Source: Acidobacteriota bacterium (GTDB lineage Bacteria; Acidobacteriota; Thermoanaerobaculia; Multivoradales; J023). From it: 64,000 nt of DNA. Below are positions 57,033 through 63,147 of this stretch, piece after piece. A model generated the notes under the pieces. That model was not told the origin of the DNA, did no database searches, and worked only from the letters and a program-made list of their open reading frames with translations. The stretch covers positions 186,001 to 250,000 of the forward strand of contig JAJCXO010000221.1 of the NCBI GenBank assembly GCA_029263395.1, written 5' to 3'. How positions within the stretch are numbered: position 1 is the first letter of the stretch; every line of letters begins with the position of its first letter. A program made the position numbers and the translations under genes.

Positions 57033-57166
57033 GGCGTGATCTCCTGATGGGTTTGGGGACCGGGGACGACCGCCGGTCGAGGTCAGTGAGGCTGTGCGAA
57101 AGCTATCGTGGGCTCGCGGAAGCTGTCAAATACCGCTAAACCGTAGCCATGGATGCTGTAGCGACG

Positions 57167-57172
57167 TATGCT
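57167..57172 (+). promoter_or_regulatory. -10-like hexamer just upstream of start codon
   Basis: TATGCT (57167-57172) ends 8 nt before the ATG at 57181, and there is no ribosome binding site in CACGCCTT. It fits a nearly leaderless start like several others in the window. No convincing -35 was seen. Confidence 0.3.
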
Positions 57173-57180
57173 CACGCCTT

Positions 57181-59148
57181 ATGGCCGTTCCTGCGACCCG
57201 ACCCGCTGCCGTGAGCACCTCGCCACCTTCAGGATCCCGAGCGATACAACAGACTGTGGCGCACAGCCTGCTCTGTCTCTCCTTGGTGCTGATTCTGCTG
57301 CCGCTGACCCACCGTAAACCGGGGATGCCCGCCACCCTCAAGGCGGACGAGCCGGCCTACTTTCTGGCGGCGTTGAGTCTGGTGAAAGACGGTGACTTGC
57401 GGTGTGAAACTAAAGATTTGGCGCGGATCTACCAGGAGTTTCCCTATGCACCGGTGCAGAACCTCATCCTTTCGACCGATGACGGATGGCGCACAGTGTA
57501 CTTCGGCAAACCCTACATCTTCGCCTTCCTGGCGGCACCCCTCGCCGCCTTGTGGGGAGCCAATGGGCTGGTGGTTTTCAACTCGTTGCTGATGGTGGCG
57601 ATGATTTGGATGGGCTTCCTCTACCTGCGACGCTACAACCCGGACTGGTTGGCTGCGTTGTTTGCGGTCGGTTTTTATCTGCTGAGTACCACCTACCGCT
57701 ACGTTTACTGGCTACAGCCGGAGTTGCTCAACATGTTCGCCACGGCGGGCTGTTTGTTCTTTGGGATGCATGTTTTCGATCCCGGGGGGCGCGCCTCTTC
57801 AGGACCAGGCTGGTGGCATCGGCTGGCGTCCAATCGTGCGGCGTTGGTGTGGTCGGCGTCAGCACTGGCGCTCGGGGTCTACAACAAGCCGATGTTGGCG
57901 GCGATTGGGCTACCGGTGTGCTTCCGGCTACTGCGCCATCGCAGCTGGCGCGAACTTGGAATCTGGTTGCTCAGTGCGGTGGTGGCGATGGGAGTGTTGG
58001 CCGGAATCTCGGTGATGTTCACCGGCCATCCGACCGCCTATCTAGGGATCGATCGCCAGGGCTACAACATCCATAGCCCACACGAGATGCCGATGGAGCC
58101 CAACCCGCCGCCGGCACCTGGTGAGCAGCGGGAGCTCGGCCGGGAAACCGCGGGTTGGTGGTGGATCTTCCAGGTACCGCAGTTTACGTTCGCCGAGCTG
58201 AGTGAGGATCTGGTCTACTTTTTCTTCGGCCGCCATACCGGTTTGTTCGTTTATCAGCCCTTCGCTCTGTTGGCAGTGATCCTCTTCCTGGCAACGCCAG
58301 GACTGGCTTTTGGTCGCCTTGGAGCGGTACGTTGGGTAGTCGTTGCAGCATTGGCCTTTGTCGCCCTCTTTCTGCTGCTGTTCTTGCAGCACAACTGGCA
58401 TGGCGGCGGTGGATTTGTCGGCAATCGATATTTTGTGATGGTTTATCCGGCGTTCCTCTTTCTGGTGACGCGCATTCGTCCATCTTGGATTGTCGTCCCA
58501 ACTTTCGCCATCGGCGGATTGCTGGTCGGCTCGTTGCAGTTATCCCCTTTGGGGTTGGTTGTACCCTCGCCGACGCTGCAAGCACATGTCCGCAATCCGC
58601 CGTTCAAACTGTTTCCATTCGAGCACTCTCTGCCTGAGATTCCGGGTTATCTGGGCCTGGCATACGAGGAAGTTTACTTCAGCGGCCGCAAAGATCATTT
58701 CCGGGTCGAAGGCCAGGAAATGTGGATTTCGGGCCGCGACAACAATGAGATGTGGCTGCAAAGCCTCGAACCAGTAGAGGAATTGTGGCTCGACGTCCGT
58801 AGTGACATTCCGAACAATGCCGTGACGGTGCGGGTCGAAGACGCCACCGCGCAGCTCATGGCCGGGCCGGAATTGCAGCGGATCACGCTCATGCCCTCCC
58901 GTCCGACTCTGGTCCGCAAAGAGCGGGCGCGGGTCGAATGGTCGCGGGTGTTTTCGATTTACCTCTACCGGTTCAATATCGACGTGGCGCAAGGTGAGAT
59001 GCCGCGTTGGCGTGACGCTGGTGAGCATTTCTTTCACAAAGGGAGCATCCTGACCTTCGGAGGGGTTAGGTTCGCATCGGGCCGGACGGTCGAGCCAGAA
59101 GATTCGGCGGCGGATGCGGAACGAACGGAAATCGATCAGGGAGAATAA
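57181..59148 (+). CDS. polytopic membrane protein, GT-C glycosyltransferase-like
   Basis: A 655-residue protein with about eleven membrane segments up to residue 470 and a 185-residue soluble C-terminal domain. After the first segment comes LKADEPAYFLAALSLVKDGD, which resembles the acidic first-loop motif of GT-C (PMT/ArnT-like) transferases. HNWHGGGGFVGNRYFVMVYPAFLFL is like the late conserved region of such enzymes. The substrate is unknown; envelope glycans are plausible given the adjacent rfbF. ATG 57181 is preferred; an in-frame start at 57094 would add 29 residues of non-protein-like sequence. It lies 76 nt before the 2-oxoglutarate dehydrogenase gene. Confidence 0.65.
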   Translation: MAVPATRPAAVSTSPPSGSRAIQQTVAHSLLCLSLVLILLPLTHRKPGMPATLKADEPAYFLAALSLVKDGDLRCETKDLARIYQEFPYAPVQNLILSTDDGWRTVYFGKPYIFAFLAAPLAALWGANGLVVFNSLLMVAMIWMGFLYLRRYNPDWLAALFAVGFYLLSTTYRYVYWLQPELLNMFATAGCLFFGMHVFDPGGRASSGPGWWHRLASNRAALVWSASALALGVYNKPMLAAIGLPVCFRLLRHRSWRELGIWLLSAVVAMGVLAGISVMFTGHPTAYLGIDRQGYNIHSPHEMPMEPNPPPAPGEQRELGRETAGWWWIFQVPQFTFAELSEDLVYFFFGRHTGLFVYQPFALLAVILFLATPGLAFGRLGAVRWVVVAALAFVALFLLLFLQHNWHGGGGFVGNRYFVMVYPAFLFLVTRIRPSWIVVPTFAIGGLLVGSLQLSPLGLVVPSPTLQAHVRNPPFKLFPFEHSLPEIPGYLGLAYEEVYFSGRKDHFRVEGQEMWISGRDNNEMWLQSLEPVEELWLDVRSDIPNNAVTVRVEDATAQLMAGPELQRITLMPSRPTLVRKERARVEWSRVFSIYLYRFNIDVAQGEMPRWRDAGEHFFHKGSILTFGGVRFASGRTVEPEDSAADAERTEIDQGE

Positions 59149-59224: not shown

Positions 59225-62200
59225 ATGAAACGCGACGATTCGCTGACCGCATCCAACCTCGCTTTTGTCGAAGGGCTGTATGCGGACTATCTGGAAGACC
59301 CTTCGTCGGTCGATACCGACTGGCACGCCACGTTCAAGGATTGGGCAGCCGACGACGGTGACGCCGAGGCGGCACGGCGCTCGGTGGATGGACCGAGCTT
59401 CAAAGCTGCCAGTATCTTTGATCCGCCGGTTGCTGTGAGCCTCCTGGCGCGGCCGTCAACCGTTGATTCGATTGCTGGCAGACCTCCGGCTGCTGCCAGG
59501 TCTCCGGTGGCTGCCAAGCCGGCCCCTGCTCGGCCCGCCAATGCCGGAGGTGCCTTGGGCGCTACCGAGTCCGGGGCGATTTCGGGTGAGGTGACCGGGC
59601 GCATCGAGTTGTTGGAGCAGATGAAGCTTTTCCGTGGCCTACCGCGAGAGGAGATTGCGGCGCTGGCGGTGTTGGCGGTTGAAGAGCGTTTCGCCGATGG
59701 CGATACGGTGTGTCGGGAAGCGGAAGAAGGTGATCGTCTTTTTCTGCTGATCGAAGGCGAACTGTCAGTGCGGCGTAAGGATGAAATCGTCACCACCTTA
59801 CATCCCGGCGATGTAGTCGGTGAGATGTCGGTGCTCGACGCGCAACCGCGCTCGGCAGATGTTGTCGCCCACGGCGCCGTCACCACGCTCAGCTTGGCGC
59901 GGGTTGATCTCTTGGCGCAGCTCGAGAAGCGTCCGGCGCTCAATCGAGGCTTCCTCCGGATGCTCTCCATGCGTCTTCGTGAGCGCAGCTCGCGCCAGGA
60001 TCGGGTCAACCGACTGATCCATGCGTACCGGGTGCGCGGCCACCTGCTGGCACAGCTCGATCCCCTCGGTCGCCCACGAGGTTCGAATCCGGAGCTCGAG
60101 CTCGAGCATTGGGGCTTGTCAGAGAAAGATCTCGACTCGTTATTTTCGTCGACCACAATCGCCGGCACCACAGTGCTCACGCTGCGCGAGATCCTAGCGC
60201 TGCTCGAGTCGGCCTATTGTCGCTCGATCGGTGTGCAGTTCATGCATATCGACGATGTGCACGCCAAGAATTGGCTGATCAATCGACTCGAGGATTCCGA
60301 CCATCATCGTCAGTTGACGCGTGACGAGAAGCTGCGGATCTTGACCAAGTTGACCGATGCCGAGCTTTTCGAACAGTTCATTCACAAGAAGTTCTTGGGT
60401 GCCAAGCGCTTCTCGTTGGAGGGTGCCGAGACCCTGATCCCGTTGTTGGATCTAGCTTTCGAAGAGGCGGGGGATCAGCGGGTCGAAGAAATTGTCCTCG
60501 GTATGGCTCATCGCGGCCGGCTCAATGTGTTGGTCAACATCATGGGGAAAAGTCCGCGTGAGATCTTCCGTGAGTTTGCCGACGACTACGCCGAAGAATT
60601 CATCGGTCGAGGCGACGTCAAATATCACCTTGGCTACAGCTCCGACCGACCCACGACTGACGGTCGCAAGATGCACCTGTCGTTGTGTTTCAACCCCAGC
60701 CATCTGGAATTCGTCAACCCGGTGCTCCAGGGTCGAGTGCGGGCCAAGCAGCAACGTTTTGGGGACACCGAGCATCGACGCTGCCTCGGCATCTTGGTGC
60801 ATGGTGACGCCGCGTTTGCTGGCCAAGGGGTGATCCAAGAACTGTTCAACATGGCGAATTTGCCGGGTTATCGCACCGGTGGCACGTTGCACGTGATCGT
60901 CAACAACCAGATCGGGTTCACCACCTCGCCGGAGATGGGGCGTTCGACCCACTATGCAACCGACGTTGCGCGTATGGTCCAGACCCCAGTGTTCCACGTC
61001 AACGGTGAGGATCCAGAAGCGGTCGCCCGGGTGGTGCGTACCGCGATGGATTTCCGTCGTGAGTTTCAGCAGGACGTCATCATCGACATGTACTGTTATC
61101 GGCGCCACGGCCACAACGAAGGGGATGAGCCTTCGTTTACTCAACCGTTGCTGTACGAGGTCATCCGCAAACGTAAGACGGTCCGCGACAGTTACCTCGA
61201 CCATTTGTTGGAGCTTGGCGGTATCGAGCGCGACGAAGCAGAGAAGATCAAGGAGCAGCGTTCCCAGGTTTTGGAAGACGAACTCAGCAAGGCGCAGGAT
61301 CCAGGTTACAAGTTGCGGGGACCACGCTCCGGCGAAGGGCTCTGGCATGGTTACCGCGGCGGTGCAGATCACGAGACGCCGGAAGTTGCAACCGGGGTCG
61401 CCAAGGACAAGCTGGCCATCCTGCTCAGCAAGACTACCGAGCTGCCGGCCGGTTTCAACATCCACCGCACGTTGAAGCGGATCTTCAAAAAACGCCGCGA
61501 AATGGCGTCGGGAGAGCAACCTCTCGATTGGGGGGCGGCCGAGATCTTGGCTTTGGCGTCGCTGGTGGTGGAAGGCGCTCCGGTGCGATTCAGTGGCCAG
61601 GACTCTGGGCGCGGCACCTTCAGCCATCGCCATGCGTTGTTGTATGACGCGCAAAGCGGAGAGGTTCATGTGCCCCTGCAACACCTGGCTGAAGGGCAGG
61701 CCGAAGTGAACGTTTGGGACAGTCCGCTGTCCGAGGTCAGCGTGGTCGGATTCGAATATGGCTACAGCCTCGACACTCCGGAGGGACTGAACATTTGGGA
61801 GGCACAATTCGGAGACTTCTCGAATTGTGCCCAGGTGATCATCGATCAATTCATTACATCGGGTGAGGACAAATGGCGGCGGTTGTCGAGCTTGGTGATG
61901 TTGTTGCCCCACGGCTTCGAGGGCCAGGGGCCGGAGCATTCGTCGGCACGCCTCGAGCGGTATCTCAATTTGGCGGCGGAAGACAACATCCAGGTCGTCA
62001 ACTTGACGACACCGGCGCAGTTTTTCCATTGTCTGCGTCGCCAGGTCTTGCGGCCGTGGCGTAAGCCGTTGATTGTGATGTCGCCCAAGAGCCTTCTGCG
62101 CCACCCGCGGGCGGTCTCAACTCTGGATGAGTTGGCCGAGGGGTCGTTCCAGCGTGTTATCGCCGACGATCAAGTGGATCCGGCGGACGTCCAACGGGTG

Positions 62201-62545
62201 CTCTTGACGAGTGGCAAGATCTTTTACGAGTTGGAGGCTGCGCGTCGGGAAGGCGAACGCAACGACGTTGCGATCGTCCGGCTCGAGCAGTATTACCCGC
62301 TGTCGACAGATCTCCTCGAAGCCGCGTTGTCGCCTTACGCCGACGGTACACCGGTGTTTTGGGTGCAAGAAGAGCCCCGCAACATGGGTGCCTGGAGCTT
62401 CTTGCTACTACGCCTCGGTCGCCAGCTTTTTGGCCGTTGGCCGCTCGAGGCCATCACCCGCCCTGAGTCGGCCAGCCCGGCGACTGGATCGGCGGCTGCC
62501 CACAAGAAAGAGCAGGCTGGTTTGATTGCGGAGGCGTTGAGTTGA
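59225..62545 (+). CDS. sucA: 2-oxoglutarate dehydrogenase E1 with a fused cyclic-nucleotide-binding domain
   Basis: A 1106-residue thiamine-diphosphate-dependent E1 component. Residues 8-45 are the short N-terminal E2-contact segment (FVEGLYADYLEDPSSVDTDW). An Ala/Pro-rich linker (about 60-120) follows. Residues 125-255 form a CRP-type cyclic-nucleotide-binding domain with an intact phosphate-binding cassette: Gly199-Glu200 to Arg209-Ser210-Ala211 (GEMSVLDAQPRSA). The E1 core resumes at 261 (VNRLIHAYRVRGHLLAQLDPLG) and continues with GMAHRGRLNVL, FNPSHLEFV, GDAAFAGQG, NNQIGFTTSP and YRRHGHNEGDEPSFTQP. E. coli SucA has only a linker where this domain sits. AGGAG lies 5 nt before the ATG. sucB and lpd are not adjacent. 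Allosteric control by a cyclic nucleotide is inference. Confidence 0.92.
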   Translation: MKRDDSLTASNLAFVEGLYADYLEDPSSVDTDWHATFKDWAADDGDAEAARRSVDGPSFKAASIFDPPVAVSLLARPSTVDSIAGRPPAAARSPVAAKPAPARPANAGGALGATESGAISGEVTGRIELLEQMKLFRGLPREEIAALAVLAVEERFADGDTVCREAEEGDRLFLLIEGELSVRRKDEIVTTLHPGDVVGEMSVLDAQPRSADVVAHGAVTTLSLARVDLLAQLEKRPALNRGFLRMLSMRLRERSSRQDRVNRLIHAYRVRGHLLAQLDPLGRPRGSNPELELEHWGLSEKDLDSLFSSTTIAGTTVLTLREILALLESAYCRSIGVQFMHIDDVHAKNWLINRLEDSDHHRQLTRDEKLRILTKLTDAELFEQFIHKKFLGAKRFSLEGAETLIPLLDLAFEEAGDQRVEEIVLGMAHRGRLNVLVNIMGKSPREIFREFADDYAEEFIGRGDVKYHLGYSSDRPTTDGRKMHLSLCFNPSHLEFVNPVLQGRVRAKQQRFGDTEHRRCLGILVHGDAAFAGQGVIQELFNMANLPGYRTGGTLHVIVNNQIGFTTSPEMGRSTHYATDVARMVQTPVFHVNGEDPEAVARVVRTAMDFRREFQQDVIIDMYCYRRHGHNEGDEPSFTQPLLYEVIRKRKTVRDSYLDHLLELGGIERDEAEKIKEQRSQVLEDELSKAQDPGYKLRGPRSGEGLWHGYRGGADHETPEVATGVAKDKLAILLSKTTELPAGFNIHRTLKRIFKKRREMASGEQPLDWGAAEILALASLVVEGAPVRFSGQDSGRGTFSHRHALLYDAQSGEVHVPLQHLAEGQAEVNVWDSPLSEVSVVGFEYGYSLDTPEGLNIWEAQFGDFSNCAQVIIDQFITSGEDKWRRLSSLVMLLPHGFEGQGPEHSSARLERYLNLAAEDNIQVVNLTTPAQFFHCLRRQVLRPWRKPLIVMSPKSLLRHPRAVSTLDELAEGSFQRVIADDQVDPADVQRVLLTSGKIFYELEAARREGERNDVAIVRLEQYYPLSTDLLEAALSPYADGTPVFWVQEEPRNMGAWSFLLLRLGRQLFGRWPLEAITRPESASPATGSAAAHKKEQAGLIAEALS

Positions 62546-63147
62546 GCGATTGTTGTCAAAATTGCAACAAGGCCATCCGATCCCACGATGGCGTCCATCT
62601 GATGGGTGTGGAAGGTGATCCTGGTACCTTACTTTGCGGTCGTTGCTACAACGAAATGATGAGCGTCAGCATGGAACTCGATTTTGAGCACCCGGACTTC
62701 GCGCCGATCAGTGTGACCGATTGCGCGGGTGACGATCACGACTTCGAGTTTCGAACGCATCTCCACGGCGAGGTCGTAAAAATCGACGCCCTCGAGGTGC
62801 ACAACGGTGAGGTCAAGGGTTACGAGTTCAGCGTCCTGGGTGATGCCGAAGAAGACCCGATGGATTTATTTCGTGTGCTCTATCAGCGCATGCGCGACGA
62901 ATTGGGAAAAAAATATCTCACCAATGCCGATCATCCCCAGATCGCCGAAGGCAGCGTGAAGGGTCGGGTCGAATGGGACGAAGAGACCGACGGTGACCTT
63001 CCACGGTTGGTCATCGATGGGCGTGAGATCTCGTGGCACGAGATGGGCCGCATGTTGATGAGCTATGAAGGTTGGCGGTTCGAGCTTGAAGTCCACGATT
63101 GTGACGACATGGTCGGTGTTGTCCAGGCGGATTCGGACGAGAGTTAA
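62542..63147 (+). CDS. small zinc-finger-like acidic protein, coupled to sucA
   Basis: A 201-residue acidic cytoplasmic protein of unknown function. The N-terminus has a Cys cluster, CCQNC and LLCGRC about 25 residues apart, consistent with a zinc knuckle. The rest alternates beta strands and helices, with a C-terminal phrase EISWHEMGRMLMSYEGWRFELEVHD. I do not recognise a characterised family. It starts at TTG 62542, overlapping the sucA stop by 4 nt, and GGAGG at 62530-62534 is 7 nt upstream, so translation is coupled to sucA. The following gene is on the other strand, with its stop adjacent. Confidence 0.65.
   Translation: MSDCCQNCNKAIRSHDGVHLMGVEGDPGTLLCGRCYNEMMSVSMELDFEHPDFAPISVTDCAGDDHDFEFRTHLHGEVVKIDALEVHNGEVKGYEFSVLGDAEEDPMDLFRVLYQRMRDELGKKYLTNADHPQIAEGSVKGRVEWDEETDGDLPRLVIDGREISWHEMGRMLMSYEGWRFELEVHDCDDMVGVVQADSDES

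Follow-up and report, generated by a model that had tools for sequence, protein, structure and literature searches.

Does a cyclic nucleotide directly control the 2-oxoglutarate dehydrogenase (ODH) E1 subunit encoded in the window, the 64,000-nucleotide stretch of Acidobacteriota DNA that was analysed? The open reading frame at 59225–62545 on the forward strand starts with ATG, encodes 1106 residues, and is uninterrupted along its full length. The features of the gene are the following:

59225..62545, + strand: sucA-type gene, 1106 aa, 2-oxoglutarate dehydrogenase E1 with an inserted cyclic-nucleotide-binding (CNB) domain (open ORF, Pfam, NCBIfam)
59240..59341, + strand: PF16078 2-oxogl_dehyd_N, aa 6–39 (42 bits, cut-off 27)
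59354..59578, + strand: variable linker, predicted disordered, aa 44–118 (pLDDT <50; dN/dS 0.41 for aa 46–124)
59585..59932, + strand: CNB domain proper, aa 121–236, with PF00027 at aa 154–235 (Pfam, model, fold matches)
59819..59857, + strand: phosphate-binding cassette GEMSVLDAQPRSA, aa 199–211, containing Glu200 and Arg209
59933..60049, + strand: single predicted helix, aa 237–275, the CNB C-helix running on into the E1 core, where it is the opening helix (model; ungapped alignment; dN/dS 0.015)
59996..62542, + strand: E1 catalytic core, aa 258–1106, with E1_dh, Transket_pyr, and OxoGdeHyase_C (Pfam, PDB matches)

Five Pfam domains of the window protein score above their gathering thresholds. 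The cNMP_binding family PF00027 reaches 61.3 bits (cut-off 27.5, E 8.8e-17), and the E1 families span residues 382–692 (E1_dh), 766–959 (Transket_pyr), and 964–1105 (OxoGdeHyase_C). The NCBIfam E1o equivalog model PRK09404 gives 1236.7 bits (cut-off 764). The role of the PF16078 segment is contact with, or docking on, E2. Among nine relatives scanned, PF00027 passed in all nine and PF16078 in eight, with L046 under the cut-off. The Pfam scan of the window protein detected neither a helix-turn-helix (HTH) family after the CNB domain, where E1 comes next, nor a 2-oxoacid_dh (E2 acyltransferase) domain. A sequence-only reading of this DNA had placed a complete CRP-type domain between the N-terminal segment and the E1 core, and the layout agrees with it: PF16078 occupies residues 6–39, the CNB domain 121–236, and the core 258–1106. 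The bounds proposed there, 59590–60010, are close to those of the modelled domain including its last helix (residues 121–275, 59585–60049). The model of the CNB domain alone (157 aa, pLDDT 83.8) is a beta-roll with flanking helices, which matches CNB domains of solved structures with VIA Z-scores of up to 20.1. The domain thus passed both PF00027 and the fold comparison. The cassette, VGEMSVLDAQPRSAD, is intact as had been claimed, with Glu at position 200 and Arg at 209, nine residues apart.

The domain could owe its position to an assembly error or a frameshift that fused two genes. Nothing in the window points to such an artefact; the E1 frame of one relative (G031, L047) is broken, perhaps by a fault of the metagenome assembly. 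However, the same junction occurs in 28 separate genomes, including that of Acanthopleuribacter pedis (KCTC strain) and that of G442, which is a single 11.8 Mb contig. Because of this recurrence, a chimeric join was rejected, and we give an artefact almost no credence.

All 28 sequences have the cassette Glu and 27 of them the Arg, down to approximately 30% identity to the window protein. The exception is G006 (L013), which has Trp in place of the Arg. The count comprises 27 rows obtained with a spacing filter together with L047; L089, which lacks the CNB domain and passed the filter by chance, was removed. The filter itself picks on the Glu–Arg spacing, and that spacing rests on the window cassette, L047, the ungapped alignment, and the profile spans. 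Cassettes are also present in the sequences of L191–L195, L203, and L204. This conservation bears on the possibility that the domain no longer senses anything and has retained its fold as a rigid spacer, a dimerisation module, or a dock for E2 or E3. CNB folds that do not bind nucleotides exist, and the fold alone is no proof of binding. The best VIA match of the CNB model is a plant channel of a kind in which this domain is not known to bind nucleotide, and both the Trp of G006 and the existence of relatives without the domain are in line with a structural role. However, a spacer would need neither the cassette Glu nor the Arg, yet both are kept, and we therefore consider this explanation unlikely.

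A sensor of another cue, such as a metabolite, a gas, or a redox signal, would resemble the FNR- and CooA-like members of the superfamily, and CRP-fold sensors have indeed diverged to other ligands. The variation of the residue after the cassette Arg (Ser in 22 of 27 sequences, Ile in two, and a single case each of Val, Trp, and Thr) would be compatible with such a change. Nevertheless, alignments with cGMP-dependent protein kinases place the cassette directly on theirs, and over the same range the CNB model matches PKA and CRP-type chains whose crystal structures contain cAMP, which makes a different type of ligand improbable.

In the full-length AlphaFold model, the CNB domain and E1 have in common one 39-residue helix (residues 237–275), within which the motif YRVRGH occupies residues 268–273. 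The alignment of the window protein with 11 relatives (30–64% identity) has zero gaps over 157 columns that run from the CNB domain into E1, unlike the linker before the CNB domain, the length of which differs among the relatives. Between the window and its nearest species (G001), dN/dS is 0.058 in the CNB domain, where dS is 1.8 and thus close to saturation, 0.052 in E1, 0.015 at the junction (residues 237–267), and 0.41 in the linker (residues 46–124). Together with the purifying selection, the conservation and the shared helix predicted by the model favour a regulatory, ligand-binding domain.

We put at roughly 70% the probability that the window protein is a cyclic-nucleotide-gated ODH E1 in which the rigid helix serves as a lever. 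The N-terminal segment would dock on E2 and be followed by the flexible linker and the CNB domain, the beta-roll of which would bind a cyclic nucleotide, most likely cAMP, through Glu200 and Arg209. In other CNB proteins, the binding of a ligand shifts the C-helix. In the model, the helix that ends the CNB domain is also the one that opens the E1 core. Such a shift would be transmitted by the rigid shared helix to the E1 dimer, which may then take on a different catalytic conformation or cooperate differently with E2. The sign of the effect is a guess, with activation slightly favoured by analogy to mycobacterial Pat. Going by the predicted structure, a second messenger may act directly on the 2-oxoglutarate dehydrogenase step and tune it through a helix shared by sensor and enzyme. 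If so, the reach of a classical second messenger would extend, beyond transcription or protein modification, to a bacterial enzyme of central metabolism itself.

The elements of the protein are familiar from other systems. PKA regulatory subunits, PKG, and the regulators CRP, GlxR, and Clr share with it the CNB fold and the Glu and Arg nine residues apart (as seen in alignments to PKG). The outputs of PKA-, PKG-, and CRP-type CNB proteins are kinase control or DNA binding, and CRP/FNR regulators carry a C-terminal HTH, which the window protein lacks. The SucA/E1o structures 2jgd, 6km9, and 6vef have the whole E1 core in common with the window protein (6km9, E 3.7e-261). The SucA systems also resemble that of the window in the N-terminal PF16078 segment and in separate, nearby genes for E2 and E3. 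However, the matches to these structures begin at window residues 255–257, and none spans the CNB domain. We found no published description of a CNB-containing SucA in open-licence PMC papers, and in that literature the earlier impression that none had been described apparently holds.

The actinobacterial OdhA/Kgd proteins (8p5r, 8p5s, 8p5t, 2xt6) share the E1o core with the window protein. The NCBIfam model PRK12270 scores 1164.1 (cut-off 878), and the match covers the E1 part only (profile positions 393–1239 of 1241). Excerpts of PMC10415282 describe OdhA/Kgd as having an extra N-terminal module and an E1o allosterically controlled by acetyl-CoA and the FHA proteins GarA and OdhI. This module is an E2 acyltransferase domain, which the window protein lacks, so that it differs from the CNB insertion as had been remarked from the sequence, and the ligands and partners that regulate OdhA/Kgd are others. 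Cyclic-nucleotide gating, if real, would be a further, unrelated control of the 2-oxoglutarate branch point. Mycobacterial Pat (Rv0998, MSMEG_5458) is, in the excerpts of PMC4964394 and PMC8556138, an N-terminal CNB domain fused to an enzyme, the activity of which is gated by cAMP. Pat and the window protein are both CNB–enzyme fusions, but the enzyme domain of Pat is a GNAT and not an E1. The NCBIfam Pat model matches window residues 133–251 (E 1.4e-8), far under its cut-off. The Family 2B encapsulin shell protein model NF041163 matches residues 129–253, also under its cut-off, and PycTIR (8jsk) is a fold match of the CNB domain. Both systems couple a CNB domain to an unrelated effector; going by the record names, these effectors are a shell protein and a TIR domain, not a metabolic dehydrogenase.

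The sucB gene is located 4.4 kb downstream of the E1 gene (C221:252945-254210; 527.7 bits, cut-off 378.65), and the next ORF encodes dihydrolipoyl dehydrogenase (lpd, TIGR01350; 564.4 bits, cut-off 408.8). The ORF after sucA, with DUF7685/7686/7713, was present in one of the 16 loci searched in relatives (14 genomes), and it is therefore not counted as a part of the device. The CNB-type E1 is the sole E1 match in the window's genome, which also encodes the alpha subunit of a 2-oxoacid:acceptor oxidoreductase that might bypass ODH. Six f77 genomes carry the CNB form, and five of them encode a second E1 without the domain. Given this oxidoreductase and these second E1 proteins, the earlier proposal of direct control over TCA-cycle flux is too strong.

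The 28 genomes with the CNB-containing E1, a group of little-studied bacteria, belong to lineages labelled Acidobacteriota, Myxococcota, and Bdellovibrionota. CNB-free relatives are G004, from the same family, and G517, G519, G520, and G531 elsewhere; since close relatives lack the domain, it is dispensable. In the class of G433, 16 of 45 CNB-negative genomes were examined, 13 of which had an E1 match. A first E1 tree contained 58 rows hand-picked from 135 E1 cores, some of them copies of one gene. Constraining the 18 CNB rows to group with G004, which joined the group only after the tree had been inspected, slightly improved the likelihood over that of the unconstrained tree (by 3.86; p-AU 0.624), and a single clade for these rows is not rejected. 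For a second tree of 57 rows, close CNB-free relatives were added, 19 CNB-free rows were removed (L024, L054, L060, L064, L069, L085, L109, L116, L117, L125, L127, L128, L129, L131, L132, L133, L135, L138, and L143), and L198 and L202, from which no E1 frame was extracted, were omitted. This tree requires at least five changes, three of which are forced by the starred branches; L053 and L055, which have no CNB domain, lie near the base with unresolved placement. We read this history as one gain and several losses, with repeated gain or transfer as alternatives. The CNB-containing E1 is not a one-off; it is an old architecture that has been patchily retained.

Overall, we lean towards a reading in which this ODH E1 is a second-messenger receptor, where cAMP or another cyclic nucleotide would gate, by way of the rigid shared helix, the step from 2-oxoglutarate to succinyl-CoA. 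The device would be ancient, probably of one origin, inherited or spread across Acidobacteriota, Myxococcota, and Bdellovibrionota, and repeatedly lost, and the CNB-free paralogue in five of the six f77 carriers would be its unregulated counterpart. Natural controls are provided by G004, without the domain, G006, with the altered cassette, and Acanthopleuribacter pedis, which has both kinds of E1 in its genome.

Class III cyclases (PF00211) were found in all 18 CNB-positive genomes tested, of the 28, and in none of the 10 genomes tested from g7, a genus without the CNB domain (0 of 14 in the phylum listing). This co-occurrence counts little because PF00211 is common in the phylum (253 of 396 genomes sampled) and because genome size and kinship confound it. 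G004 encodes three cyclases and has no CNB domain in its E1.

The window's sucA-type gene encodes a 2-oxoglutarate dehydrogenase E1 component (E1o) with an in-register cyclic-nucleotide-binding (CNB) domain, and this architecture is real and conserved. The gene and the N-terminal part of its product are organized as follows:

59225-62545, + strand: sucA-type E1 with CNB domain, uninterrupted ORF of 1106 residues
Residues 6-39: 2-oxogl_dehyd_N (Pfam)
Residues 154-235: cNMP_binding (Pfam, 61.3 bits; gathering threshold 27.5)

The Pfam domains are arranged in the order 2-oxogl_dehyd_N, cNMP_binding, E1_dh, Transket_pyr, and OxoGdeHyase_C. The protein scores 1236.7 bits with NCBIfam PRK09404 (2-oxoglutarate dehydrogenase E1; cut-off 764), and the solved E1o chain 6km9 aligns to residues 256-1105 (E 3.7e-261). 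The phosphate cassette, GEMSVLDAQPRSA, contains Glu200 and Arg209, and cGMP-dependent protein kinases have an identical glutamate and arginine in the printed alignments to the CNB domain. The ORF, the Pfam and NCBIfam matches, and the cassette confirm the sequence-only reading, which placed a complete CNB domain with these two residues inside SucA, between the N-terminal segment and the core. The corresponding residues of PKA RI-alpha are, coincidentally, also numbered 200 and 209.

The CNB-E1 architecture is present in at least 28 genomes, and since the scan of the collection covered the best 80 of 297 confirmed stretches, the true count is probably larger. The recurrence of the architecture in 28 genomes makes an artefact of the window's assembly, such as a chimeric join, very unlikely. 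The CNB-bearing E1s are distributed as follows:

Family f1 (the window's family): G000 (the window's genome), G001, G002, G003, G005, G006
Family f5 (the window's order): G010, G018, G025, G031
Family f77: G246, G409, G438, G439, G441, G442
Loci in records named Myxococcota, Myxococcales, Vicinamibacteria or Bdellovibrionales: L040, L041, L043, L045, L046, L049
A further class, reached via L043 (genome G433): G516, G523, G526, G533, G534, G535

The record names of relatives' MAGs may disagree with their GTDB placement; locus L042, named Deltaproteobacteria, has a CNB sequence identical to that of G010. The match in G438 equals that in G436 (Acanthopleuribacter pedis) in positions and lengths. 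In family f1, the CNB domain is absent from the E1 of G004. The architecture occurs in 6/93 genomes of the class of G246, all of them from f77 (6/7 genomes of that family), and in 7/52 of the class of G433. Among the matches listed for the phylum sample of 396 genomes, best E-values first, at least six cover the CNB domain and E1 together. Locus L047 (G031:C306) has its frame broken within E1, giving two pieces (query 125-628 and 667-1105), perhaps through an assembly fault of the MAG.

In an alignment of the window protein with 11 relatives (30 to 64% identity), a 157-residue stretch reaching from the beginning of the CNB domain into the E1 core has no gaps. The cassette VGE and the E1 motif YRxRGH lie 70 residues apart in 17 sequences, measured without selection on spacing, and the linker preceding the CNB domain varies in length and sequence. 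Among distinct sequences with a frame open through the junction, the cassette glutamate is kept in 27/27 and the arginine in 26/27; L047, which retains both, brings these counts to 28/28 and 27/28. The residue following the arginine is serine in 22/27, isoleucine in 2/27, and valine, tryptophan or threonine in 1/27 each, a variability which suggests that ligand choice may differ among lineages. The sole member seen with the arginine replaced, by tryptophan, is that of G006 (L013); the remaining cassette is kept, and this natural variant may bind nothing or a different ligand. Simple Nei-Gojobori counting with our own script compared the window with G001, the closest relative. The dN/dS values were lowest in the junction helix (0.015, residues 237-267), followed by E1 (0.052, residues 268-1106) and the CNB domain (0.058, residues 125-236; dS 1.8, near saturation), and were higher in residues 1-45 (0.20) and the linker (0.41, residues 46-124). 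By these values, the CNB domain is under a constraint similar to that on the catalytic core.

An AlphaFold model of the CNB domain and junction, based on 12 sequences, shows a standard CNB fold (mean pLDDT 83.8). Its last helix, 117-156, corresponds to residues 237-276, and the confidence drops toward the helix end. The PDB matches listed, 50 rows in each of two comparisons, are CNB domains of PKA, PKG, CRP-type regulators, channels, and PycTIR; the best VIA row among them is a plant potassium channel (Z 20.1, 131 residues, 1.3 Å). In the full-length model (mean pLDDT 78.9, pTM 0.75; 31 sequences), residues 237-275 form one helix that serves as the C-helix of the CNB domain and also as the first helix of E1, which contains YRVRGH; block pLDDT is 75-89 across residues 241-270. 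The continuous helix, together with pLDDT below 50 in the linker (residues 44-118), suggests that the CNB domain is flexibly tethered at one side and joined rigidly and in register to the enzyme at the other. This is the arrangement expected if a sensor were to move the enzyme it is attached to; the full-length model lacks ligand and dimer and so cannot show movement.

We consider it probable, at about 0.7, that the CNB-bearing E1 is a cyclic-nucleotide-gated enzyme. Class III cyclases (PF00211) are encoded in 18/18 CNB-positive genomes tested, of the 28, against a background of 253/396 genomes in the phylum sample. They were not found in the ten tested genomes of g7, a genus with CNB-free E1, and the CNB-free G004 and G038 encode three and two, respectively. 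This distribution fits a cyclic-nucleotide signal but proves little. The closest functional counterpart is the mycobacterial acetyltransferase Pat, which is reported to be gated by cAMP through a fused CNB domain (PMC4964394, PMC8556138). Actinobacterial OdhA/Kgd is described as carrying an E2 domain in the chain and being controlled by acetyl-CoA and FHA proteins (PMC10415282). This E2 domain is absent from the window protein by Pfam, in agreement with the earlier distinction from the E2-like acyltransferase domain of Kgd. No relevant description of an ODH-CNB combination was found in the open-licence literature, so that the claim of no described SucA of this kind has held so far. By term search, the words 'oxoglutarate', 'ketoglutarate', 'cyclic', and 'TCA' are absent from a comparative genomics paper on Acanthopleuribacteraceae (PMC8841776). 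The architecture is apparently undescribed in print; automated domain listings may well already contain it.

CNB-bearing proteins cluster in E1-core trees: none of 500 label shuffles reached so low a value. In a 58-row tree, a single clade of the 18 CNB rows and G004 is not rejected (p-AU 0.624). In a second tree, to which CNB-free relatives from G433's class were added, three of these (L185-L187) group as sisters with L191, which bears the CNB domain (support 80), and a fourth, L188, stands beside them (support 99). This tree needs at least five changes, and well-supported branches force three of the five. The simplest reading is one old fusion followed by several losses, including that in G004, whose E1 lacks the CNB domain and retains both the E1 helix and the N-terminal segment. 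Five of the six CNB-bearing f77 genomes (G438, G439, G442, G246, G409) encode a second, CNB-free E1 with 47-49% identity to the query, and a division of labour between the two is possible. The genome of L045 also has a second E1 (L199; G434:C24, minus strand), fused to a 2-oxoacid_dh (E2) domain (PF00198, 75.5 bits). This arrangement is known from actinobacterial Kgd and lies here outside Actinobacteria by record name (Vicinamibacteria).

The window's genome (completeness 96.29) has a single E1 match. Its 13 further matches at E ≤0.001 all lie inside query residues 115-258 and are therefore CNB domains of other proteins. Two genes for the remaining components follow sucA:

4.4 kb downstream of sucA, past the window end on the same contig: sucB (527.7 bits, cut-off 378.65)
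Directly after sucB: dihydrolipoyl dehydrogenase ORF (TIGR01350, 564.4 bits, cut-off 408.8)

These neighbours and the single E1 make it very probable that the window E1 is part of an ordinary ODH. An alternative route may be offered by a 2-oxoacid:acceptor oxidoreductase, whose alpha subunit is encoded in the genome (663.8 bits, cut-off 482.75). A second E2-like region (G000:C117:15324-17044) is under the sucB cut-off, and one part has an in-frame TGA (L164, L166). Immediately upstream of sucA, a 684-residue ORF (57094-59148, + strand) has no Pfam match and a weak NCBIfam match to an LA_3751-type glycosyltransferase (23.2 bits, cut-off 200). Downstream, an ORF with DUF7685/7686/7713 (62542-63147, + strand; DUF7685 slightly under its cut-off) is present in G001 alone among the 16 loci (14 genomes) searched. 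Its TTG start overlaps the sucA stop by four bases, resembling translational coupling.
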